Positions 17,848-29,634 of a stretch of DNA of 64,000 nt are shown here, piece by piece. Made by a program: the position numbers and the translations under genes. A model generated the notes under the pieces. The model made no database searches. It was not told where the DNA came from and was given only the letters and a program-made list of their open reading frames with translations. Numbering within the stretch: position 1 is the stretch's first letter; each line of letters begins with the position of its first letter. Where the stretch lies: positions 186,001-250,000 of the forward strand of contig NZ_JAMQOQ010000004.1 of NCBI RefSeq assembly GCF_031624635.1. The letters run 5' to 3'. This DNA comes from Halogeometricum sp. S3BR5-2. Its GTDB lineage: Archaea; Halobacteriota; Halobacteria; Halobacteriales; Haloferacaceae.

Positions 17848-20800
17848 ATGAACGAACCAGAGACGAACCGACTCACCGCCGTCGTCTTGGCGGTGATGAT
17901 GATAACGTCGGTGTTCGCCGGCACCTTCGCCTTCTCGGGCGCGGTGGCGGCGGCGCCGGGAGAGGTCCTCTACCGCGTGAACGCGGGCGGAGGGGGAGTC
18001 ACCGGAGCCGACGCGCCGGAGTGGTCCGGCGATTGGCAGCAGTATCAAACGGGAAACAGCCAAACCTACAGTACGGGCGACTCCGTTTCGCTCGGACCGT
18101 CCGTTCCATCGGGGACGCCCGCGGGCGTCTTCCAGAGCGAGGTGTACGGCGACCAGCAGTGGACGTTCTCCGAGAACATCCAAGCCGGTCAACCGTACGA
18201 AGTCCGGCTGTACTTCGCCGAGATATACGCCACCAGTGACGAGGAACGGCTCTTCGACGTCGCTGTCGAGGGCGAACAGGTGCTGAACGACTACGATATC
18301 CACGCCGACGTCGGCCACGACGCGGGCGTGATGAAGTCCTACACCGTGACGCCCTCGGACGGCGCCATCGACGTCGCACTCACGACAGTCCAGGACAACG
18401 CCAAGATTTCGGCCGTCGAAATCGTCTCTGCCGGGCCCGAACCGAACACGCTCGGCGGTCCGTCGAGCGTCGACTTCGGCTCGGTTCTCAGCGGCGAGTC
18501 CGAGACACAGACGGTCGCCGTGACCAATCTCGGCGGCGACGACGACGCCAGCATCGCCATCGACGGCGTCTCCGTCGACGGCGACGACGCGTTCTCGGCG
18601 GGGTCGGCGTCTCAGACGACGCTCGCCCCCGGCGAGTCCGCGGAGATTCCGGTGACGTTCTCGCCGTCGAGCGCCGACTCCGCGAGCGCGACGCTTTCGA
18701 TCGCACACAGCGGGTCGAACGACCCGCTGACGGTGTCGCTCTCGGGCGATGGAGCGAGCGCGGTCGACCCCGACTTCACGAAGAGCAAGCTCGACGGGTT
18801 CAGCGCGGGTAACCCGACGGCTATCGACGTCGGTCCCGACGGGCGCTTCTACGTCTCGGTGCAGAGCGGCACCGTCTACGTGCTCGACGTCGAACGCACG
18901 GGCGACGACAGCTACGAGGTCGTCGGGCAGTTCGCGACCGACGCGATCAAGCAGATTCCCAACCACGACGACTTCGGGGAGTACAACGCGGGCGAGAACG
19001 ACCGACAGATCACCGGTCTGACCGTCGGCGGGACGGCCGAGAATCCGATCGTCTACGTCTCTTCCAGCGACCCGTCGATCGACGTGGGGCAGGACGACGA
19101 CGACACGGACACGAACTCCGGTACGATCTCTCGACTGACCCTCTCGCCGGGAAGCGACGGCGTGCTCCAATCGAGCGAGGTCGACCACGACGTGATGGTG
19201 CTCGGACTGCCGCGGTCCGAGGAGAACCACGCGACCAACGGACTCGACCTTTCGGCCGACGGCGACACGCTGTACGTCGCCCAGGGCGGGAATACGAACA
19301 AGGGTGCGCCGGGCGACAACTTCGGACACACCCCCGAGTTCGCGCTCTCGGCCGCCATTCTGGAAATCGATATCGCGCAGATAGAGAGCGACTACCAGGC
19401 GAAGAATCTCCAGAGCTACGACGGAAGCTATCCCGACCTGGAGTTCTACTACGCCATCCCCACGATTCAGAACGACGACGGGACGGACGGCGACGACCTT
19501 CCCTTCGGCGGAAACGACGGGATCAACCAGGCCAAGATAGTCGAAGACGGGCCGGTCCAGGTCTACTCGCCCGGCTACCGCAACCCGTACGACCTCGTCG
19601 TTACGACGAGCGGCCAGATCTACGCCGCCGACCACGGACCGAACGGCGGTTGGGGCGGCCAACCGGCCGACGCCAGCGGGAACATCGTGGCCGACGCCAC
19701 GTCGGTGACGAACCACCCGAACGAGGACGGAAGCTACTCGAAGAGCGACGAACTCGTCAAGGTCGACGAGGGCGTCTACGGCGGCCACGCCGCGCCCATC
19801 CGCGCGAACCCGACGGGCGCGGACATCTACGACGAGAACGGGAACCTGGTGTTCGACATCACGGAATCGAACTCGCCCGTTCCGGCGAGCATGGTGAACC
19901 CGGTCGAGGCGGACTACATCCCGCCGACGAGCGGGTCGCCCGACCCGGGTGCGCCCGCCGGTAGCGCGAACACGATGGTGGACCAGAACGGCGACAAGGT
20001 TCTGTTCGGTCCCACCGGCGGCACGGCCGAGTACACCGCCTCGAACTTCGGCGGCGCGATGCAGGGCGACCTCCTGCAGGTCGAACTCGGTGGCTCGATC
20101 AAGCGCATCCAGCTTAGCGCCGACGGCGAGACGGCGACGAACGTCGAAACGGTGTTCAACACCGGCTCGCAGCCGCTCGGTATCGCGACTGTCGGCGACG
20201 ACGGCCCGTTCCCGGGCGTCGTGCTGACGGCGAACCGCGGGAGCGGCGACGTGACGATCTTCGAGCCGGTCGACTACGGCACCGACGGTAGCGGCGACGG
20301 GCAGCAGTGCACCGGCGCCGACGACGCCTCACTCGACGAGGACGGCGACGGCTACGACAACGCCGACGAACTCGACGCGGGCACCGACCCGTGTTCCGCG
20401 GCGTCCACGCCCGCCGACTTCGACGGCGACGGCGAATCGAACCTCAACGACCCGGACGACGATAATGACGGCCTCGACGACACCGAGGACCCGTTCGCCG
20501 TCGACCCGAACAACGGTCTCGACACGGCGCTCCCCGTCCAGTACGACTTCTCCGAACTCGGTCTGTTCGGCGAGAGCGGTCAGGGCTGGACCGGGCTCAT
20601 GACGAACGGGCAGGACTACCAGGAGCTGTACGACCCGACGGAGATGACCGTCGGCGGCGCCGCGGAGGTGCTGACGGTCGAAGGAGTTCCGAACGGCGAC
20701 GCCTACTCGGACACCAACACGCAGCAGTACGGCTTCCAGTTCGGCGTCGACGCGCCGGACCAGCCGTTCACCGTCGAGACGACGGTGAGCAGCTTCCCGG

Positions 20801-23800
20801 AGAACCCGGAGAACTACCAGTCCGCCGGCCTGTTCGTCGGCACCGGAGACCAGTCGAACTACGTGAAGCTGGTCGCCGCGGCCGACGGCGGCACCGGCGG
20901 CGTCCAGTTCGCGAAAGAGGTCGACGACTCCTTCGAGAGCCAGGGCGTCACCAGCGACAGTGCCGTCGCGGGCGGCTCTCCGACGCTTCGGATGACCGTC
21001 GACCCGACGACCGATCCGGTGCCGAACAACGGCGTCGAAGAATTCGCGGTCACGGCCGAGTACGAGATCGACGGCGAGACGACTCAGGTCGACACCACGG
21101 CGGTGCCGGCGAGCTGGTTCGACTCGTCCGACGGTGTCGCGCCGGCGGTGGGCGTTATCTCGACGTCCAACGGTGCGAGCGCGTTCCCGGCGACGTGGAC
21201 CGACATCTCGGTCGACTACGTGAACCCGCCCGCGAACGCCCCGCCGACGGCCGACGCCGGCGCGGACGTCACCGTCGAGGAGGGCCAGCAGGTCACCCTC
21301 GACGGGTCCGGTTCGTCCGACCCGGACGGCGACGCGCTGGGCTACACGTGGACGCAGACGGCAGGGAGCCCGTCCGGACTGCTCGACATGAGCGACGGTC
21401 AGCAGGCGCCGTTCATCGCCCCCGACGTGGACGGCGACGCGGTGTTCACCTTCGAGTTGAGCGTCTCGGACGGCGAGGACTCGGCGACCGACACCGTGAA
21501 CGTCACCGTCGAGGACACCGACACCGACGGCGGAGACGGCACGCAGACCGTCGCTGAGTTCGTCGCCGGCGAGGACGGTATCGTCGATAACGCGGAGGTT
21601 CAGCAGGCTATCAACTGGTGGGCCACCGGCGCGGCGGTGCCCGGAACCGACGGCGCGACGGTCGACAACGCGCAGATACAGCAACTCGTCAACGTGTGGG
21701 CGACCGGCGCCTCCGTGACGACACCCGAAGAGGAGACCACCGGTTCGGCGCTGGTCGAAATCACGCCCGACAGCGGCAACATCGACCAATCGACTTACGG
21801 CGGCGACACGTTCCAGGTGACGAACACCGGCGAGAAGAACATCACGTCGGTGAGCTTCGACCTCGGCACGTCGTCGATGCCGGACATGGTGTTCGACCCG
21901 CAGGGTACCGCAGGTGACCCGACGGGCGAAGGCCTCAACATCGCCAGCGACGGCGGAACGGGAATCATCACCCAACCCGGCACCGGCGAGGCGTTCTCTC
22001 AGCCCCACAACGGCCAGAACGCCGACGACGGCTACGACGTGATGACCGTCGAGTTCGACGACTTCCAGTCGGACGAGACGGCGACGTTCTGGGTCGACAA
22101 CGACCCGACCAGCATCAAGGGCGCCACGGTCGGCTCTCAGGAGGCCGGTCCGGTCTCAGGTCTGGAACTCGCTCGTGCGACGGTCACTGTCACGTACGAG
22201 GACGGCACGACCCAGACCACTCAGCTGATGGGTGACGGCAGCGTCGGCGGCGCGACCGCCGTCGTGACCGGAGACGAAGCCCCCGCGCCCTCGGTCGGCG
22301 CGCAGGGCGTCTCGCTCGATTCGAGCGTTCTCGACGACTACCACAGCGGTGCGACCGTCTCGCAGGCGGACCAGACCGTCACGGTCACCGGCCAGCCCGG
22401 CGAGACCGTCACGCTCGTTCGCGTCGAGGGCGAACTCGCGCTGAGCAACGTTCCGAACGGCGGCTACGACGTCGAAGACCTGGAAGCGAACAACGCGGTC
22501 GACGTTCAGTACTACACCGCTACCCTCGACTCGAACGGCGAGGCGACGGTGCCGGTCACGCTGACTAGCTCGGCCGACGACGGCGACGAGGCCGGTTACA
22601 ACTACTTCGTCGCCGCGCACGGTGAGGCCTCGGGCGACACGGGCCTCGCCTCGAACGTCGTCGTACTGAAGTACGACCAAGACGCGGGCGACGGTTCCGA
22701 CGGTCAGTCCGGCGACGTCGTCTTCGCCGTGAACGCCGGCGGCTCGGAGTACACCGCGGTCGACGGCACGGTCTACGAGGCCGACACGAACTTCGACGGC
22801 GGCAGCGCGTTCAGCACCGGCAGCGCCGGAACGCCCTCGACCCCGGAGATCGGGAACACCGAGGACGACCCGCTCTACCGGACCGAACGGTACGGCGACC
22901 CGTTCAGCTACGACATCCCCGTCTCGGAGAGCGGAACCTACGAGGTCACGCTCCAGTTCGCCGAGATCTACCAGGGCGTCTCCTCGAACGACGGAGACGC
23001 CGACCAGATCGGCGACCGCGTGTTCAGTGCGAACGTCGAAGGCGGCGAGGTCGAACTCGATGAGTACGACCTCTACGCCGACGTCGGCGCGCTGAACGCC
23101 ACGGAGAAGACCTACACGGTCGAGGTAACCGATGGCACGCTGAACATCGACTTCAGCGCGTCCGCGGACAACGCGAAGATCTCCGCGATCAAGGTGACTC
23201 AGACTGATGGTAGCTCGAACGGCGGCTCCGGCTCGGCCGACTTCGCCGTGACGGCGAACAGCGGTATCGACGCGAGCACCTACGGCGGCGGCTCGCTCTC
23301 GATCGCGAACACCGGCGACAAGCAGATCACGTCGGTCACCTACGACCTGAGCACCGCCGTGCTCTCGGACGTCGTCTTCGACCCCGAGGGTACCGCCGGT
23401 GACTCCGGCTCGAAGGGCTTCTCGCCCGACGGCGGCGCGAGCGCGACCGGCCTGCAGGGCGGGTCGTTCGCCGCGCCGCACGACGGACAGAGCGGCGCCG
23501 ACGGCTACGACGAACTGACGGCGACGTTCGACGACTTCGACGGCGGCGAGACGTTCGCCTTCTCCGTCGACATCGACCCGACCAGCATCAAGAACGCGCA
23601 GGGCACCGGTGCCGCCGGCTCCGTCTCCGGACTGGAGATGACCGGCGCGACCGTCACGGTCGAGTACGCCGACGGCAGCACGCAGACGACGGCGCTGTTC
23701 GGCGACGGGAGCGACGGCGGCGCGGAAGCCGCCGCGAAGACCGACGTCGCCCCCGCGCCGGCGCTCGGCGTCGAGGGCGTCTCGCTCGATTCGAGTGCGC

Positions 23801-24687
23801 TCGACGCACAGCACGGCGCGGCGACCGTCTCGCAGGCGGACCAGACCGTCACGGTCTCCGGTCCCGCCGGCGCGACGGTCTCCCTGCTCCACGTCGAGGG
23901 ACAACTCGAACTCGCTAACCAGGCCGACGGCTACGAACTCGTCGACTACGAGGCCAACACGGCCGAGAACGTCGACTATCAGACCGTCCAGCTCGGCACC
24001 GACGGCGAGGCGACGGTTGACGTCTCCCTCACCAACACGTCGAGCTCCGGCGCCGAGGGCGGCTACAACCACTTCGTCGCCGCCGTGCAGGACGGCGACG
24101 GCGACACCGGCCTCACCTCGAACGTCGTCGTGCTGAAGTACGACGAGAGCGCGGGTGACGACGGTTCGTCCGGCGCGCAGGTCCTCTACCGCGTGAACGC
24201 GGGCGGAGACACGGTCGCTGCCGTCGACGCCGGTCCCGAGTGGGTCGGCGCGACCGGCGCCGGTTCGACGTACCTCGCCTCGGTCGGGCCCGACGGCGGC
24301 AACTACGCCGCCGGGGCGGACGTTACGGTCGACGACACGGTTCCGTCGTCCACCCCCGACGCCGTGTTCGACACCGAGCGCTACGGGGAGATGACGTGGG
24401 AGTTCGCGGCGGACGCGGGGCAAGAGGTCGAGGTGCGTCTGTACTTCGCCAACTCGTTCCCCGGCACGAGCGACCCTGGCGACCGCGCGTTCAACGTCTC
24501 CGTCGAGGGCCAACAGGTCCTCACGCAGTACGATCCGGTGGCCGACGTGGGCCACGCGACGGGGACGATGAAGAGTTTCACCGCGACCGAGGACGGCGAC
24601 GGCACGGTCACCGTCACCTTCGAGACGGGCGCGGCGGAGAAACCCGAGGTTCGAGCCATCGAGATTCTCGCGGAGGACGACGCGTAG
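17848..24687 (+). CDS. Giant exported multidomain protein: three malectin domains, sugar-dehydrogenase propeller, PKD, degenerate dockerin
   Basis: A 2279-residue protein. The ATG at 17848 gives a haloarchaeal surface-protein signal peptide ending FSGAVAAAPG. Approximate domain order is: malectin 1 (39-195, VLYRVNAGG); Ig-like choice-of-anchor-D type domain (198-302); glucose/sorbosone dehydrogenase-like beta-propeller (307-815, PGYRNPYDLVV); Asp-rich calcium-binding thrombospondin-3-type repeats (825-891); a concanavalin-like domain (892-1126); one K319/PKD domain (1129-1230); a degenerate dockerin-like pair (1232-1293, EDGIVDNAEVQQAIN and ATVDNAQIQQLVN); module A copy 1 (1300-1615); malectin 2 (1624-1789); module A copy 2 (1795-2108); malectin 3 (2111-2279). 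There is no C-terminal anchor. It probably binds and oxidises carbohydrates outside the cell, and may be tethered by the cohesins encoded downstream. Confidence 0.85.
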   Translation: MNEPETNRLTAVVLAVMMITSVFAGTFAFSGAVAAAPGEVLYRVNAGGGGVTGADAPEWSGDWQQYQTGNSQTYSTGDSVSLGPSVPSGTPAGVFQSEVYGDQQWTFSENIQAGQPYEVRLYFAEIYATSDEERLFDVAVEGEQVLNDYDIHADVGHDAGVMKSYTVTPSDGAIDVALTTVQDNAKISAVEIVSAGPEPNTLGGPSSVDFGSVLSGESETQTVAVTNLGGDDDASIAIDGVSVDGDDAFSAGSASQTTLAPGESAEIPVTFSPSSADSASATLSIAHSGSNDPLTVSLSGDGASAVDPDFTKSKLDGFSAGNPTAIDVGPDGRFYVSVQSGTVYVLDVERTGDDSYEVVGQFATDAIKQIPNHDDFGEYNAGENDRQITGLTVGGTAENPIVYVSSSDPSIDVGQDDDDTDTNSGTISRLTLSPGSDGVLQSSEVDHDVMVLGLPRSEENHATNGLDLSADGDTLYVAQGGNTNKGAPGDNFGHTPEFALSAAILEIDIAQIESDYQAKNLQSYDGSYPDLEFYYAIPTIQNDDGTDGDDLPFGGNDGINQAKIVEDGPVQVYSPGYRNPYDLVVTTSGQIYAADHGPNGGWGGQPADASGNIVADATSVTNHPNEDGSYSKSDELVKVDEGVYGGHAAPIRANPTGADIYDENGNLVFDITESNSPVPASMVNPVEADYIPPTSGSPDPGAPAGSANTMVDQNGDKVLFGPTGGTAEYTASNFGGAMQGDLLQVELGGSIKRIQLSADGETATNVETVFNTGSQPLGIATVGDDGPFPGVVLTANRGSGDVTIFEPVDYGTDGSGDGQQCTGADDASLDEDGDGYDNADELDAGTDPCSAASTPADFDGDGESNLNDPDDDNDGLDDTEDPFAVDPNNGLDTALPVQYDFSELGLFGESGQGWTGLMTNGQDYQELYDPTEMTVGGAAEVLTVEGVPNGDAYSDTNTQQYGFQFGVDAPDQPFTVETTVSSFPENPENYQSAGLFVGTGDQSNYVKLVAAADGGTGGVQFAKEVDDSFESQGVTSDSAVAGGSPTLRMTVDPTTDPVPNNGVEEFAVTAEYEIDGETTQVDTTAVPASWFDSSDGVAPAVGVISTSNGASAFPATWTDISVDYVNPPANAPPTADAGADVTVEEGQQVTLDGSGSSDPDGDALGYTWTQTAGSPSGLLDMSDGQQAPFIAPDVDGDAVFTFELSVSDGEDSATDTVNVTVEDTDTDGGDGTQTVAEFVAGEDGIVDNAEVQQAINWWATGAAVPGTDGATVDNAQIQQLVNVWATGASVTTPEEETTGSALVEITPDSGNIDQSTYGGDTFQVTNTGEKNITSVSFDLGTSSMPDMVFDPQGTAGDPTGEGLNIASDGGTGIITQPGTGEAFSQPHNGQNADDGYDVMTVEFDDFQSDETATFWVDNDPTSIKGATVGSQEAGPVSGLELARATVTVTYEDGTTQTTQLMGDGSVGGATAVVTGDEAPAPSVGAQGVSLDSSVLDDYHSGATVSQADQTVTVTGQPGETVTLVRVEGELALSNVPNGGYDVEDLEANNAVDVQYYTATLDSNGEATVPVTLTSSADDGDEAGYNYFVAAHGEASGDTGLASNVVVLKYDQDAGDGSDGQSGDVVFAVNAGGSEYTAVDGTVYEADTNFDGGSAFSTGSAGTPSTPEIGNTEDDPLYRTERYGDPFSYDIPVSESGTYEVTLQFAEIYQGVSSNDGDADQIGDRVFSANVEGGEVELDEYDLYADVGALNATEKTYTVEVTDGTLNIDFSASADNAKISAIKVTQTDGSSNGGSGSADFAVTANSGIDASTYGGGSLSIANTGDKQITSVTYDLSTAVLSDVVFDPEGTAGDSGSKGFSPDGGASATGLQGGSFAAPHDGQSGADGYDELTATFDDFDGGETFAFSVDIDPTSIKNAQGTGAAGSVSGLEMTGATVTVEYADGSTQTTALFGDGSDGGAEAAAKTDVAPAPALGVEGVSLDSSALDAQHGAATVSQADQTVTVSGPAGATVSLLHVEGQLELANQADGYELVDYEANTAENVDYQTVQLGTDGEATVDVSLTNTSSSGAEGGYNHFVAAVQDGDGDTGLTSNVVVLKYDESAGDDGSSGAQVLYRVNAGGDTVAAVDAGPEWVGATGAGSTYLASVGPDGGNYAAGADVTVDDTVPSSTPDAVFDTERYGEMTWEFAADAGQEVEVRLYFANSFPGTSDPGDRAFNVSVEGQQVLTQYDPVADVGHATGTMKSFTATEDGDGTVTVTFETGAAEKPEVRAIEILAEDDA
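21745..22690 (+). repeat. Module A, copy 1, of the giant protein
   Basis: This segment encodes about 315 residues that recur once more downstream. Shared landmarks are the STYGG start, VFDP.GTAGD, DPTSIK, VSLDSS and a nearly identical SQADQTVTV, ending SNVVVLKYD. The copies are clearly diverged, so the duplication is old. Confidence 0.8.
23230..24170 (+). repeat. Module A, copy 2, of the giant protein
   Basis: Second copy of the 315-residue module, again followed by a malectin domain. The duplicated unit is therefore module A plus malectin. Confidence 0.8.
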
Positions 24688-24810
24688 ACTCGTCCGCTCC
24701 TCCGAACGACGAGCCGACGCACCGCGCTCGTCGGACCGCCGTCGGGACGACTCCCGGCACCGCATCGCGCGCCAACCACCGAAGCGAACACAGCGAATCA
24801 AAACCAACTG

Positions 24811-26838
24811 ATGAAAGACACAGCGCAGAACCGGTTCAGACAGGCGGCCGCCGCACTCGTGGCGCTCGCGCTCGTTCTCTCGGCCTTCGGGCCGGTGGGG
24901 ACGGCCGCGGCAGCCCCGACGGTCGCGGTCGCGCAGTCGCCGAACAGCACGACGGTCGCACCGGGCGATACGGTCGAGATAGAGACGGAACTCGCGGTGA
25001 CGGAACTCAACGCGCCGCAACTGATCGCGTCCCTCCCGTCCGGCTGGACCATCGAGTCGCAGACCGCCGACGGACCCGCCGCCTTCAGCGGCGACGCGTG
25101 GACGTGGCTCGCCGGTGACGCCGACGGCATCGACGCGACGTACGTCGTCACGTACACCGTCGCGGTTCCCGACGACGCCGCGCCCGGCGAGTACACCGTC
25201 GGCGCCGAAGGGTCGGCGCTGACACCCGACGACGGCAGCCGGACGGTCGACACAGCGCAGACCGCCGTCACCGTGCAGGAAGAACAGCCGAACGCCTCAC
25301 CCGTCGCGGACGCCGGCGCCGACCAGACGGTCGACGAAGGCGCCTCGGTGACGCTCGACGCGTCGGGTTCCTCTGACGCCGACTCGGACGCACTCACCTA
25401 CGCGTGGACGCAGACGGGCGGCCCGTCGGTCACGCTCTCGGACACTTCGGCGGCGTCTCCGACGTTCACTGCGCCCGACGTGAGCGCGGACACGACGCTC
25501 ACCTTCGAGGTCGAAGTCGCCGACGGTAACGGCGGCACCGACACCGACACGGTCACCGTGACCGTCGAGGCCGACGAACCGGACGAACCGACGAACACCT
25601 CGCCCGTCGCTGACGCGGGTGCAGACCAGACAGTCGACGAGGGAACGTCCGTGACGCTCGACGCGTCGGGTTCCTCTGACGCGGACGGCGATACCCTCTC
25701 GTACGCGTGGACGCAGACCGATGGTCCGACGGTGAGTCTCTCGGACGCCTCGGCGGCGTCCCCGACGTTCACCGCACCCGACGTGGAGAACGACGCGACG
25801 CTCACCTTCCAAGTGACCGTGGCAGACGGTAACGGCGGCGAAGACACCGAAACGGTCGTCGTGACCGTCGAGGCCGACGAACCGGACGAACCGACGAACA
25901 CCTCGCCCGTCGCTGACGCGGGCGCAGACCAGACGGTCGACGAGGGAACGTCCGTGACGCTCGACGCGTCCGGCTCCTTCGACGCCGACTCGGACGCGCT
26001 CACCTACGCGTGGACGCAGACGGGCGGCCCGTCTGTCACGCTCTCGGATGACTCGGCGGCGTCTCCGACGTTCACCGCGCCCGACGTGGAGAACGACGCG
26101 ACGCTGACCTTCGAGGTCGAAGTCGCCGACGGTAACGGCGGCACCGACACCGACACCGTCTCCGTGACGGTCGAGGCCGACGAACCGGACGACCCGACGA
26201 ACGACGCGGCTCCGGAGACGACCGTCTCGCTCTCGCCCGAGGATGACCTCCTCGGCGTGGACCAGACGGCCGACTTCGACCTCGTGGTCGACCCCGCCGA
26301 CGGCGGCGTCGGCGCGTACAGCATCACCGTCTCGCTCTCGGACCCGAGCGTCGGTACCATCACCGGCGTCGAACTCGCGGGCGAGGGTAGCCTCTCGGAC
26401 GTGCAGGTGGCTGAGGACGGCTCTTCGGCGACCATAGAGGCTGTGCTGGTCGACACGAACGACACCGGTGCGGTCACGCTCGGCACCGTCTCGGTACAGG
26501 GCGTCGCGGAGGGCGAGAGCGAACTCGCCCTCGACGTGACGGCGCTCGGAACCGAGGGCGGGATGCCCTACGACGTGACGACGGTCGACGGTGCGACGCT
26601 GACCGTCTCGACCCTCGTCGTCGGCAACTCCGCCGGTCCCGCCATCGACGCGGACGGTGACGGCGTCTACGAGGACGTCAACGGCGACGGCGCCGTGGAC
26701 GTGCTGGACGTGCAGACGCTGTTCGCGGCCCGCAACGGTCCGACCACGACGCAGAACCCCGACGCCTTCGACTTCAACGGCGACGGGCAGTTCGACGTCC
26801 TGGACGTGCAGTGGCTGTACTACAACGAGGTCGCCTGA
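24811..26838 (+). CDS. Exported cohesin-dockerin protein with three PKD-like repeats
   Basis: A 675-residue protein with a signal peptide ending GPVGTAAAAP. An N-terminal beta domain (about 36-150) precedes three nearly identical K319/PKD-type repeats of 101 residues each (start residues 161, 262, 363; SPVADAGADQTVDEG, later ASPTFTAPDV). A cohesin-like domain follows (about 466-603; GVGAYSITVSLSDPSVGTI). A C-terminal type I dockerin (about 611-675) has two calcium loops, DVNGDGAVDVLDVQTL and DFNGDGQFDVLDVQWL, with good Asp/Asn ligands. The protein can therefore in principle both receive and dock. It lies 123 nt after the giant gene and 24 nt before the anchored cohesin gene, probably one operon. 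Confidence 0.87.
   Translation: MKDTAQNRFRQAAAALVALALVLSAFGPVGTAAAAPTVAVAQSPNSTTVAPGDTVEIETELAVTELNAPQLIASLPSGWTIESQTADGPAAFSGDAWTWLAGDADGIDATYVVTYTVAVPDDAAPGEYTVGAEGSALTPDDGSRTVDTAQTAVTVQEEQPNASPVADAGADQTVDEGASVTLDASGSSDADSDALTYAWTQTGGPSVTLSDTSAASPTFTAPDVSADTTLTFEVEVADGNGGTDTDTVTVTVEADEPDEPTNTSPVADAGADQTVDEGTSVTLDASGSSDADGDTLSYAWTQTDGPTVSLSDASAASPTFTAPDVENDATLTFQVTVADGNGGEDTETVVVTVEADEPDEPTNTSPVADAGADQTVDEGTSVTLDASGSFDADSDALTYAWTQTGGPSVTLSDDSAASPTFTAPDVENDATLTFEVEVADGNGGTDTDTVSVTVEADEPDDPTNDAAPETTVSLSPEDDLLGVDQTADFDLVVDPADGGVGAYSITVSLSDPSVGTITGVELAGEGSLSDVQVAEDGSSATIEAVLVDTNDTGAVTLGTVSVQGVAEGESELALDVTALGTEGGMPYDVTTVDGATLTVSTLVVGNSAGPAIDADGDGVYEDVNGDGAVDVLDVQTLFAARNGPTTTQNPDAFDFNGDGQFDVLDVQWLYYNEVA
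25291..26199 (+). repeat. Three tandem 303-nt PKD-coding repeats
   Basis: Units begin at 25291, 25594 and 25897 and end at 26199, each exactly 303 nt (101 codons). They are highly similar at the DNA level, indicating recent duplication or ongoing gene conversion. Copy number could vary between strains. Confidence 0.9.
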
Positions 26839-26862
26839 GACCATGACGACGGAGGTCCGACG

Positions 26863-27753
26863 ATGGTGAACTCGAACTCGTCCCGCGGCGCGGGCGGACG
26901 CCTCCTCCGAGCGACGGCGGTGGCGTTCGTCCTCCTGACCGTCCTCTCGGCGCCGGCGGTGGCGGGGGCGGAAGCGGCGACGACCGTGCGGGTGGACGCG
27001 GCGACCGAACGGGTGGCCGTCTCGGAGACGACCACCGTCCACCTGGTCGTGGACGGCGTCGACGGCGGCGTCGGTGCGTACGACCTCGGGATCGCCCTCT
27101 CGGACCCGTCCGTCGCCACTATCAGCGACGTGAGGCTCGTCGGCGAACCGCGGCTCAACACGGTCGAAGTCGCCGAGGACGGCTCCAGCGCCGACCTCAA
27201 AGCGGCGCTGATGGACACGGACGACACCGGACGCGTCGCCATCGCCGCGGTGACGCTCTCGGGAGTCGCCCCCGGGACGACGGACGTCTCGGTGTCCGTG
27301 TCGGCCCTCGGCGCGGAAGACGGCTCCCGCTACCCGACGGAGGTCGACGCGGCGTCCGTCACGGTCGACGCCGTCGGAGCCGTCGCGTCGAACGACTACC
27401 AGTCGACGGCCGGGTCCGACTCGGTCGACGAACCGAGCGAACCGGACGAATCGGCCGACGGGTCCGACGAATCGGTCGATGACTCCGACGACTCCGTCGA
27501 CGCATCCGGCGACTCGGCGGTCGGGGACGCTCCGGCCGACGGTTCGGACGCCGGATCGGTCGACGACGCGAGCGAGACGCCCGACGACTCGGACGCGTCT
27601 GCGCTGGACGCGCCGACCGACGCCGACCGACAGGCCTCGACCGACGGCGCGTTCTCGTTCGCCCCGGCCGGCGCCTCGATATGGCTCGTCGCCCTCGTCG
27701 CCCTCGCCGCGGCGGCGCTGGTTGCGACACTCTTCGCCGTCCGGCGGCGATAG
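26863..27753 (+). CDS. Membrane-anchored cohesin-domain protein
   Basis: A 296-residue protein. A signal peptide (1-38, ending VAGAEA) is followed by one cohesin-like domain (about 42-170). Its GGVGAYDLGIALSDPSVATI segment and the VAEDGSSA stretch closely match the cohesin of the preceding gene. Then comes a Ser/Asp-rich spacer of about 80 residues typical of haloarchaeal cell-wall spacers, a C-terminal transmembrane helix (about 268-291) and a short RRR stop-transfer tail. This architecture, one cohesin displayed on a stalk, is that of an anchoring scaffoldin. The likely ligand is the dockerin of the adjacent protein. Confidence 0.85.
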   Translation: MVNSNSSRGAGGRLLRATAVAFVLLTVLSAPAVAGAEAATTVRVDAATERVAVSETTTVHLVVDGVDGGVGAYDLGIALSDPSVATISDVRLVGEPRLNTVEVAEDGSSADLKAALMDTDDTGRVAIAAVTLSGVAPGTTDVSVSVSALGAEDGSRYPTEVDAASVTVDAVGAVASNDYQSTAGSDSVDEPSEPDESADGSDESVDDSDDSVDASGDSAVGDAPADGSDAGSVDDASETPDDSDASALDAPTDADRQASTDGAFSFAPAGASIWLVALVALAAAALVATLFAVRRR

Positions 27754-28170: not shown

Positions 28171-29196
28171 TCACTCGAACCGGACGACCGTCTCGCCCCC
28201 CTCGTCCCGTTCCAACACCGCGCGGGTCGGGGACTCGAGCCACCCCTTCGGCAGCGCCACGCCCTCGTGGTCGGTGAACGGCAGGTCGAACGTCTCCACC
28301 TCGCCCGCCGTCGTCTCGGCGCTCACCGCGCGGTCGTAGCGGAAGTAGCCGTACACGTCCCGCGGCGTCCCCGGGATGTCGACGGCGGTGCGCTCGAACG
28401 GCCGCTGTGACCCCTCGCCCTCGACTTCGACGTAGAGGTTCATCGCCGCCGCGGCGATGGGGGCGCTGAAGCTCGTTCCGCTGGCCTTCACGTACTCGTC
28501 GTCGATGACCGTCCCCATCGACGTGCCGGACGCGCGCGGTAGTTTCACGTCCTTCCCGACGCCGACGACGTCGGGGTTCTCCACGGCGCCGGGGTTGTAG
28601 CTGCTGAACCGCGTCATCTCCTTCTGTTCGTTCATCGCGCCGATGCCGTAGGCGTTCTCCGCCGTCGCCGGACTCCCGCTGGTGCCGCCGGTGTTCCCGG
28701 CCGCCACCACGTCCTGCACGCCCGCGTTCATCAGTTTCGCGTGCTCGCGGTCGATGTCGGGCGACCGCGTCTGCGCGCCCCACGAGAGGTTGATGGTGGC
28801 CAGTTCGTCGGCGTGCGACTGCGCCCACTCGTAGGCGTCGAAGATGGACCGACCGTTGCCGCTCCCGCTCTCGCCGAAGATGCGGAGGTCGACTATCCGC
28901 TCGATTCCCGGCGAGAGCTGTGCGATGAGGCCCGCGACGCCCGTGCCGTGACCAACCTGGTCGTACGGTTCGTCGGGTGCCTCGGTGAAGTTGTGGTGCT
29001 CGACGGCGACGTCGTCGAACACCTCGTGGCTCTCGTCGACGCCGGAGTCCATCACGGCGACAGTGAGGCCGGCACCGGTGGGGGCGTCGTCGTCGGAGGG
29101 GGCGGGGAACCCGTGTATCTGGCGGACGTCCGAAATGGTGACCACGGGACCGGACCGACCGGTCGTGATGTTGTGGTCCGTTCGTATCTCGAACAT
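28171..29196 (-). CDS. Subtilisin-family serine protease without signal peptide
   Basis: A 341-residue protein. The ATG at 29196 (MFEIRTDHN) is preceded by a CTTATC element about 28 nt upstream; longer in-frame extensions have no sequence support. The catalytic triad is Asp50 (VAVMDSGVD), His83 (GHGTGVAGL) and Ser242 (SGTSFSAPIA), with the oxyanion Asn168 (VAAGN). Unlike halolysins it has no twin-arginine signal or pro-region, so it is likely cytoplasmic or acts on an internal target. About 85 residues follow the core domain. It is convergent with the small membrane protein gene. Confidence 0.88.
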   Translation of the reverse strand: MFEIRTDHNITTGRSGPVVTISDVRQIHGFPAPSDDDAPTGAGLTVAVMDSGVDESHEVFDDVAVEHHNFTEAPDEPYDQVGHGTGVAGLIAQLSPGIERIVDLRIFGESGSGNGRSIFDAYEWAQSHADELATINLSWGAQTRSPDIDREHAKLMNAGVQDVVAAGNTGGTSGSPATAENAYGIGAMNEQKEMTRFSSYNPGAVENPDVVGVGKDVKLPRASGTSMGTVIDDEYVKASGTSFSAPIAAAAMNLYVEVEGEGSQRPFERTAVDIPGTPRDVYGYFRYDRAVSAETTAGEVETFDLPFTDHEGVALPKGWLESPTRAVLERDEGGETVVRFE

Positions 29197-29460
29197 TATA
29201 TGCAGGTTGTTAGCAAACGTGGATAAGAGTTCGGTGCGGAGTGAAAATGATTCTCGGCGACGGGTGGGATGTGGCGATATTCCGGGCGAACTCACGCTTC
29301 GACCCCGCTCTGTCCCGAGCGCACCGTACTGATTTGACCCGCGAGGTCGTTGTCGGCGTATGGTCGAACCGATTCCGACACCCTCGCGCAAGTGCCGCGC
29401 CGCCGGCACCCGGAAGGGGTCGAGACGGGCGGAGGCGGCCGCGGGAGGCGTCCGCTGACC

Positions 29461-29634
29461 GTGCGCCTTATCCACTCTCCGGCCCGCGAACGGTGCTACG
29501 ACTGCGGGGAACGGGCGGACGTGGTGGTCGCCCGCGGGCACCGACACTGGTACAGTTGCTGGGACCACGCCCCCGCGCTGTTGGAGCACGGCGGCATGAT
29601 AGTCGCGGGCGACCTGACCGTCCGGCGGCGGTGA
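29461..29634 (+). CDS. Small Cys/His-rich (zinc-ribbon-like) protein
   Basis: The GTG at 29461 gives 57 residues with RCYDCGERADVVVARGHRHW and SCWDHAPALLEHGG, a CxxC...CxxH arrangement that could bind zinc. An upstream TTG start is possible but its extra segment is Gly/Arg-rich and unconvincing. A 32-codon ATG frame (29360-29458) ends 2 nt before this GTG, and might be a coupled leader peptide. Function unknown. Confidence 0.5.
   Translation: MRLIHSPARERCYDCGERADVVVARGHRHWYSCWDHAPALLEHGGMIVAGDLTVRRR

Follow-up and report, generated by a model that had tools for sequence, protein, structure and literature searches.

A haloarchaeal gene trio that may build a surface chain from two different docking modules

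Do three consecutive genes of a haloarchaeon encode the anchor, the adaptor and the large client of a protein chain on the cell surface, and which modules would fasten the three together? The question arises from an original prediction for a 64,000-nucleotide stretch (the window) of the 4.66-Mb, 22-contig genome of Halogeometricum sp. S3BR5-2, which read the genes, here P1, P2 and P3, as the parts of a minimal cellulosome-like complex.

Three genes and their domains

The three genes are consecutive and all on the forward strand, as predicted, and an ORF check bore out their coordinates (Table 1). The intergenic gaps are 123 nt (P1 to P2) and 24 nt (P2 to P3). At this locus the genome's nearest named relatives belong to Haloarcula, Halobellus, Halorubrum and Halorussus. 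A subtilase-like gene (window 28171-29589, reverse strand) converges on P3; our models detected no dockerin, cohesin or W module (described below) in it. ARAGORN placed a tRNA-Gly antisense within the P1 gene (window 19452-19541, reverse strand), which we judged to be a chance match and probably false.

Table 1. Genes and modules of the trio (window coordinates).
Feature	Position	Strand	Remarks
P1 gene	17848..24687	+	2279 aa
P1 propeller, sugar-dehydrogenase-like	18760..20412 (approximate limits)	+	GSDH PF07995 at cut-off; conserved GYRNPYD...DHGPNGGWGG
P1 PKD domain	21235..21510	+	immediately 5' of VPT module
P1 VPT module	21547..21717	+	degenerate dockerin-like pair, VP-x-T signature; proposed to dock on P2 W
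P2 gene	24811..26838	+	675 aa
P2 W module	24922..25281	+	NEW3-like Ig, LPSGW...WTW; proposed VPT receptor
P2 cohesin	26218..26610	+	49% identity to P3 cohesin; family model
P2 type I dockerin	26668..26817	+	two calcium loops; Dockerin_1
P3 gene	26863..27753	+	296 aa
P3 cohesin	26980..27372	+	AF2 model, PDB fold matches
P3 C-terminal hydrophobic helix	27673..27741	+	then RRR; membrane anchor; no PGF motif

P1 is composed of a signal peptide, three malectin domains, an ASH-type (choice-of-anchor-D) Ig domain, a GSDH-like propeller, TSP3-like repeats, a PKD domain, the VPT module and two repeats of an unknown domain. It was predicted to be an exported 2279-residue protein with three malectin domains, and both features held: the signal peptide is of the haloarchaeal type TIGR04207 (NCBIfam), and Malectin matched three stretches with E 2.9e-66 (Pfam). 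The predicted sugar-dehydrogenase propeller matched GSDH (PF07995) only at the cut-off (25.0 bits, cut-off 25); a PDB search with the propeller profile retrieved nothing credible. P1 would likely bind and oxidise sugar at the cell surface.

P2, an exported adaptor, begins with a signal peptide, followed by a W module (residues 38-157) that the original prediction had overlooked, three PKD-like domains (Pfam), the cohesin and the C-terminal dockerin. P3 has the predicted order of cohesin, acidic spacer and C-terminal membrane helix, preceded by a signal peptide; the cohesin was identified by its fold, as described below, and the hydrophobic helix is followed by RRR.

The dockerin of P2 and the cohesin of P3

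The cohesins of P2 and P3 are 49% identical over 130 residues and share the predicted GGVGAY core, as DGGVGAY in both. Neither matched a Pfam family at E<=1, including PF00963, and P3 had no Pfam or NCBIfam match at all. PF00963 matched 2 of 20 members of the cohesin family (best E 3.3e-5), and a PDB sequence search with the cohesin profile retrieved no cohesin, so that the evidence for the fold of P3 comes from AF2 modelling with Foldseek and VIA. For modelling, the P2 dockerin and P3 were folded as a single chain, in which the in-frame stop was read as a residue merely to join the modules; this is a joining device that implies no read-through in the cell. Fusion alignments of three parts, and extended ones, put homologous domains in the wrong place and were left out of the folding. 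The P3 cohesin was modelled with a pLDDT of about 95-98. The pTM values of the two chains that were folded, 0.70 for this chain and 0.58 for a VPT-W chain described below, are not a test of docking. Among the 50 best Foldseek matches of the P3 model in the PDB, 49 are labelled cohesin or cohesin complex, the Archaeoglobus fulgidus structure 2xdh among them, and VIA gave Z scores of 15.4 to 1g1k and 14.9 to 2xdh. Thus, P3 is a true cohesin by its modelled fold, which argues against the unrelated Ig-type fold that the original prediction had named as the outcome that would overturn it.

The P2 dockerin is the good two-loop type I dockerin that had been predicted. It matched Dockerin_1 (E 2.2e-10; 45.2 bits, over cut-off), has both calcium loops (DVNGDGAVDVLD and DFNGDGQFDVLD) and forms helices at 28-37 and 60-72 in the AF2 model, giving two units of loop plus helix.

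All three genes of this genome with a Dockerin_1 match over cut-off lie directly 5' of a cohesin gene. Besides P2-P3, there is one such pair on contig C2 (L007 3530-6120, reverse strand) and one on contig C3 (L008 4119-7558, forward strand); each encodes a Tat-exported enzyme with a C-terminal dockerin, which from its sequence we take to be a metallophosphoesterase, and next to it a cohesin with PGF-CTERM. Among the 195 genomes of the order, P3-like cohesins were found in 60 and dockerins in 73. Within the matches listed, 59 of 109 dockerins (a count that leaves out two dockerin-rich genomes) lie no more than 3 kb from a cohesin, compared to 0.58 expected by chance. The neighbouring genes include some for PhoX phosphatases with cohesin and dockerin, and for PQQ propellers with a dockerin; a membrane helix or PGF-CTERM forms the C-terminus of most of the adjoining cohesin proteins. 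At most of the loci with such a PhoX-like protein (L051, L052, L056-L059 and L129), the neighbour is a small cohesin protein whose C-terminus is a hydrophobic tail. At two further loci (L042 7109-10919; L053 8095-11150, reverse strand) a PQQ/BamB-type propeller with a C-terminal dockerin is followed by a multi-cohesin protein. Since the layout recurs in more than 20 haloarchaeal genomes, the synteny search contradicted the view that genes of this kind side by side are unusual.

As dockerin genes commonly adjoin genes for anchored cohesins in Halobacteria, and as strong and specific binding is known between the ORF2375 dockerin and the ORF2376 cohesin of A. fulgidus (PMC9705933), we are confident that the P2 dockerin would bind the P3 cohesin and so provide the membrane link. 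The fold of P3 and the synteny across many genomes point the same way, in line with the original prediction. P2 and P3 also have the A. fulgidus-type layout, in which the gene for a protein with cohesin and dockerin adjoins a cohesin-only gene; in both systems the two proteins are encoded by neighbouring ORFs and the cohesin folds are alike.

The VPT and W modules

The link between P1 and P2 had been predicted to run from a degenerate dockerin-like pair of P1 (residues 1232-1293) to the P2 cohesin. The pair is a real conserved module, but not a type I dockerin. Its signature, VP-x-T-x-G, sits between two helical repeats. The module of P1 has AGEDGIVDNAEV and PGTDGATVDNAQ, in which the loop acids are missing, and it therefore lacks the two calcium loops of a type I dockerin; Pfam returned no Dockerin_1 match for it, and for VPT no family over curated cut-off. 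A comparison of VPT with dockerins by hhalign, which spanned both repeats, was weak with 5 rows and reached 20% (E 1e-3) with 14 rows, which is suggestive only. In some members (L133, L134, L118 and L120) the first calcium loop is still complete, and there are weak matches to EF-hand models. VPT may work like a dockerin, though it is not classed as one.

VPT was found in 45 of the 392 genomes searched. Several VPT proteins (L117, L121, L130, L131, L132, L224, L226 and L244) are about 330 aa long without a signal peptide, and most of these adjoin exported W proteins; for those beside an exported W (L117, L121, L130, L131), extracellular docking is no simple explanation, and this subgroup is the chief objection to docking of VPT on W. 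In L130 and L131 the W protein contains an internal membrane helix and ends in a zinc-ribbon-like tail. At L133 (8647-11878, reverse strand) and L134 (5357-8599), an LVIVD-like Tat protein with VPT adjoins a double-W protein, the C-terminal part of which presumably resembles DUF192.

The W module has the signature LPxGW...WxW across its members and falls among the Ig domains of the NEW3/DUF11 group. The NEW3/NPCBM_assoc model PF10633 matched 12 of 13 W members at E<=0.01 (best 6.6e-11), with the W of P2 just under the curated cut-off (22.7 bits, cut-off 24.4); the modules studied here differ from the family at large in being an LPxGW...WxW subgroup tied to VPT genes. The fold, modelled as part of a VPT-W chain, is an Ig-like sandwich near alpha-2-macroglobulin receptor-binding, integrin and pilin domains; the VIA lists for this chain cover its W half. 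We rejected W as a cohesin, because many Ig-like folds were matched before cohesins; its match to the cohesin profile spans 27 columns only. The VPT-W chain came from G075 (L120), where the two genes are neighbours and form one frame across a TGA stop. AF2 gave a pLDDT of about 90-97 for VPT and mostly 89-97 for W, with a pTM of 0.58. The W rows of alignment A10 have their first strand out of place.

At several loci W lies in a small exported protein with a PGF-CTERM anchor, encoded next to a VPT gene, in which no cohesin was detected. A model seeded with only the eight W modules of trio loci gave matches at 10 of the 12 remaining VPT loci, each time in the VPT protein itself or in the product of a neighbouring gene. 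Among 463 genes of non-VPT loci it had no further match, the seeds excepted. Of 32 VPT loci that were then added, mostly from new genomes, 26 have W in the VPT gene itself or in the one beside it. Over all 57 VPT genes that were left after removal of duplicate loci, W is present in the gene itself or a direct neighbour for 49, compared to a single W among the 479 genes of 38 non-VPT loci, and none of 5000 within-locus shuffles reached 49. For the remaining eight, neither the VPT gene nor its neighbours in the retrieved stretch have a W; one of these lies at a contig end. A genome-wide scan found 70 W matches in 195 genomes, from which about 6e-4 would be expected within 3 kb of any given place.

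The orthologs of P1 show a natural exchange of modules. At 21 loci P1 is of the VPT type and the adaptor begins with W, mostly in the order signal peptide, W, further domains, cohesin, dockerin; the species include Haloarcula amylovorans, Halobellus captivus, H. inordinatus, H. rufus, Halorubrum spp. and Halorussus marinus. Four loci (Haloarcula pellucida, Halomicroarcula rubra, Halorubrum sp. Hd13 and G136) have a P1 with a true C-terminal dockerin and without VPT. At all four the adaptor has a cohesin directly after the signal peptide and a second cohesin before its dockerin, and W is absent in three; the adaptor of G136 (L046) retains W despite the dockerin of P1. Fisher tests gave p 8e-5 for the module at the adaptor N-terminus and p 1.7e-3 for W, values that are optimistic because the loci are related. 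On the propeller tree the type changes at least twice, each time together with the adaptor; only about two swaps count as independent, too few for a sign test. The cleanest case is Haloarcula pellucida, a dockerin type that nests in a VPT-type clade with 100/100 support. The P1 ortholog of Halogeometricum pallidum (L153) has neither VPT nor dockerin, and no P2 or P3 alongside.

L239 (1-12239, reverse strand) has a longer chain than the trio, comprising a P1 with VPT, a protein with W and dockerin, a protein with two cohesins and a dockerin, and a cohesin protein. A 1672-aa frame of G003 (C1:2256705-2260817), a single contig of 2.7 Mb that also holds L125 and L126, has at least six W modules; the same genome has 31 dockerin matches and possibly a cellulosome-like system.

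The proposed chain, its rivals and its relation to known systems

We consider it reasonably likely, from adjacency and module swapping, that the VPT of P1 binds the W of P2. The originally predicted contact of the P1 module with the P2 cohesin is probably wrong, as the comparative evidence favours W as the partner. In that rival reading the degenerate dockerin of P1 would bind the P2 cohesin, the P2 dockerin would bind the P3 cohesin, and W would be a mere spacer. P2 does carry a cohesin, and VPT resembles a diverged dockerin in the calcium loop of some members, the weak EF-hand matches and the two-repeat span of the profile comparison. However, VPT loci with no cohesin detected nearby and W instead are common (L117, L118, L120, L121, L224, L226, L240, L244, L248, L249, L252 and L253), and W changes along with VPT, at the same N-terminal place, in the swap loci, which makes the cohesin contact quite unlikely.

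The same exchange bears on whether VPT and W instead each bind a third surface component, such as a polysaccharide or the S-layer, and merely travel together in operons for surface proteins. The generic fold of W, within the NEW3/DUF11 Ig group, and its occurrence elsewhere without VPT would fit such a role, but the change from VPT to dockerin coincides with a change from W to cohesin at the same N-terminal place, and the adjacency is almost one VPT to one W gene; we regard this reading as unlikely. Cohesin and dockerin occur together in P2 and in many of its relatives, so P2 might polymerise, with its dockerin on the cohesin of the next P2, into a filament that is capped by P3 and leaves P1 outside. 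This is very unlikely, given that P1 adjoins the adaptor gene at 21 of 21 VPT-type P1 loci with a next gene on the contig, and that the L153 ortholog, which has neither module, stands without P2 and P3.

The reading we prefer, and hold to be somewhat probable as a whole, is a surface chain with two different fasteners, P1-VPT : W-P2-Doc : Coh-P3-membrane. The C-terminal helix of P3 would lie in the membrane and display the cohesin on an acidic stalk. The C-terminal dockerin of P2 would bind this cohesin, as the like arrangement does in A. fulgidus, and the N-terminal W of P2 would bind the VPT within P1, thereby keeping the giant malectin and sugar-dehydrogenase-like protein at the cell surface. 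Speculatively, the P2 cohesin would then be free for further dockerin proteins or for chaining of P2. The predicted chain, in which an anchor and an adaptor keep a large protein at the surface, is supported in outline: the domains, the folds, the conserved gene order and the co-variation are shown, and we infer the two contacts, the surface location of the whole and the action of P1 on sugars.

The trio is a variant of the noncellulosomal cohesin-dockerin systems and not a cellulosome. It follows the logic of the clostridial cellulosome in having an anchor, an adaptor scaffoldin and a dockerin-borne client, but there is one cohesin per adaptor and the contact with the large client is probably not made via a cohesin. 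Pfam found no cellulase or glycoside hydrolase domain over curated cut-off in P1-P3, and no poly-cohesin scaffoldin was found at the trio locus, where P2 and P3 have one cohesin each; only the docking logic of the predicted cellulosome-like complex stands. G087 (C1:468-493 kb; L123 1-19901, L124 1-5206) has a cluster of genes for dockerin proteins, of which at least four are subtilases, together with anchored cohesins. A 1260-aa frame there has no fewer than eight cohesin stretches and ends in a PGF-CTERM tail; it looks like a haloarchaeal poly-cohesin scaffoldin for proteases.

The sources consulted on the A. fulgidus pair (PMC9705933) mention neither a third partner nor another fastener; in contrast to that pair, the haloarchaeal anchors have clear membrane or PGF-CTERM tails. 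For ANME archaea, the parts of the published account considered here describe surface proteins with cohesins and dockerins and suggest surface attachment; the scaffoldin-like proteins there have up to 5 cohesins and the partners are ABC-transporter binding and S-layer proteins, and those parts do not mention a VPT:W pair (PMC9012536). Two papers on haloarchaeal enzymes interpret the dockerins as substrate-binding modules, and neither speaks of cohesins (PMC10963439, PMC13260240). The presence of dockerin genes beside genes for membrane-anchored cohesins across Halobacteria suggests surface display.

Searches of the open-access literature yielded no account of a NEW3-type domain that receives a module resembling a dockerin, and the VPT:W pair appears to be undescribed. 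There is, in our judgement, a slightly better than even chance that VPT:W is a second archaeal docking pair, in which a module derived from dockerins that has lost most calcium ligands docks on a NEW3-type Ig domain. Such a pair would be evolutionarily exchangeable with dockerin:cohesin and would, across Halobacteria, tether surface proteins such as proteases and propellers to partners that are anchored. Docking pairs that work in high salt would be useful tools, and the swap of fasteners in close relatives offers a ready test set for the evolution of docking specificity.
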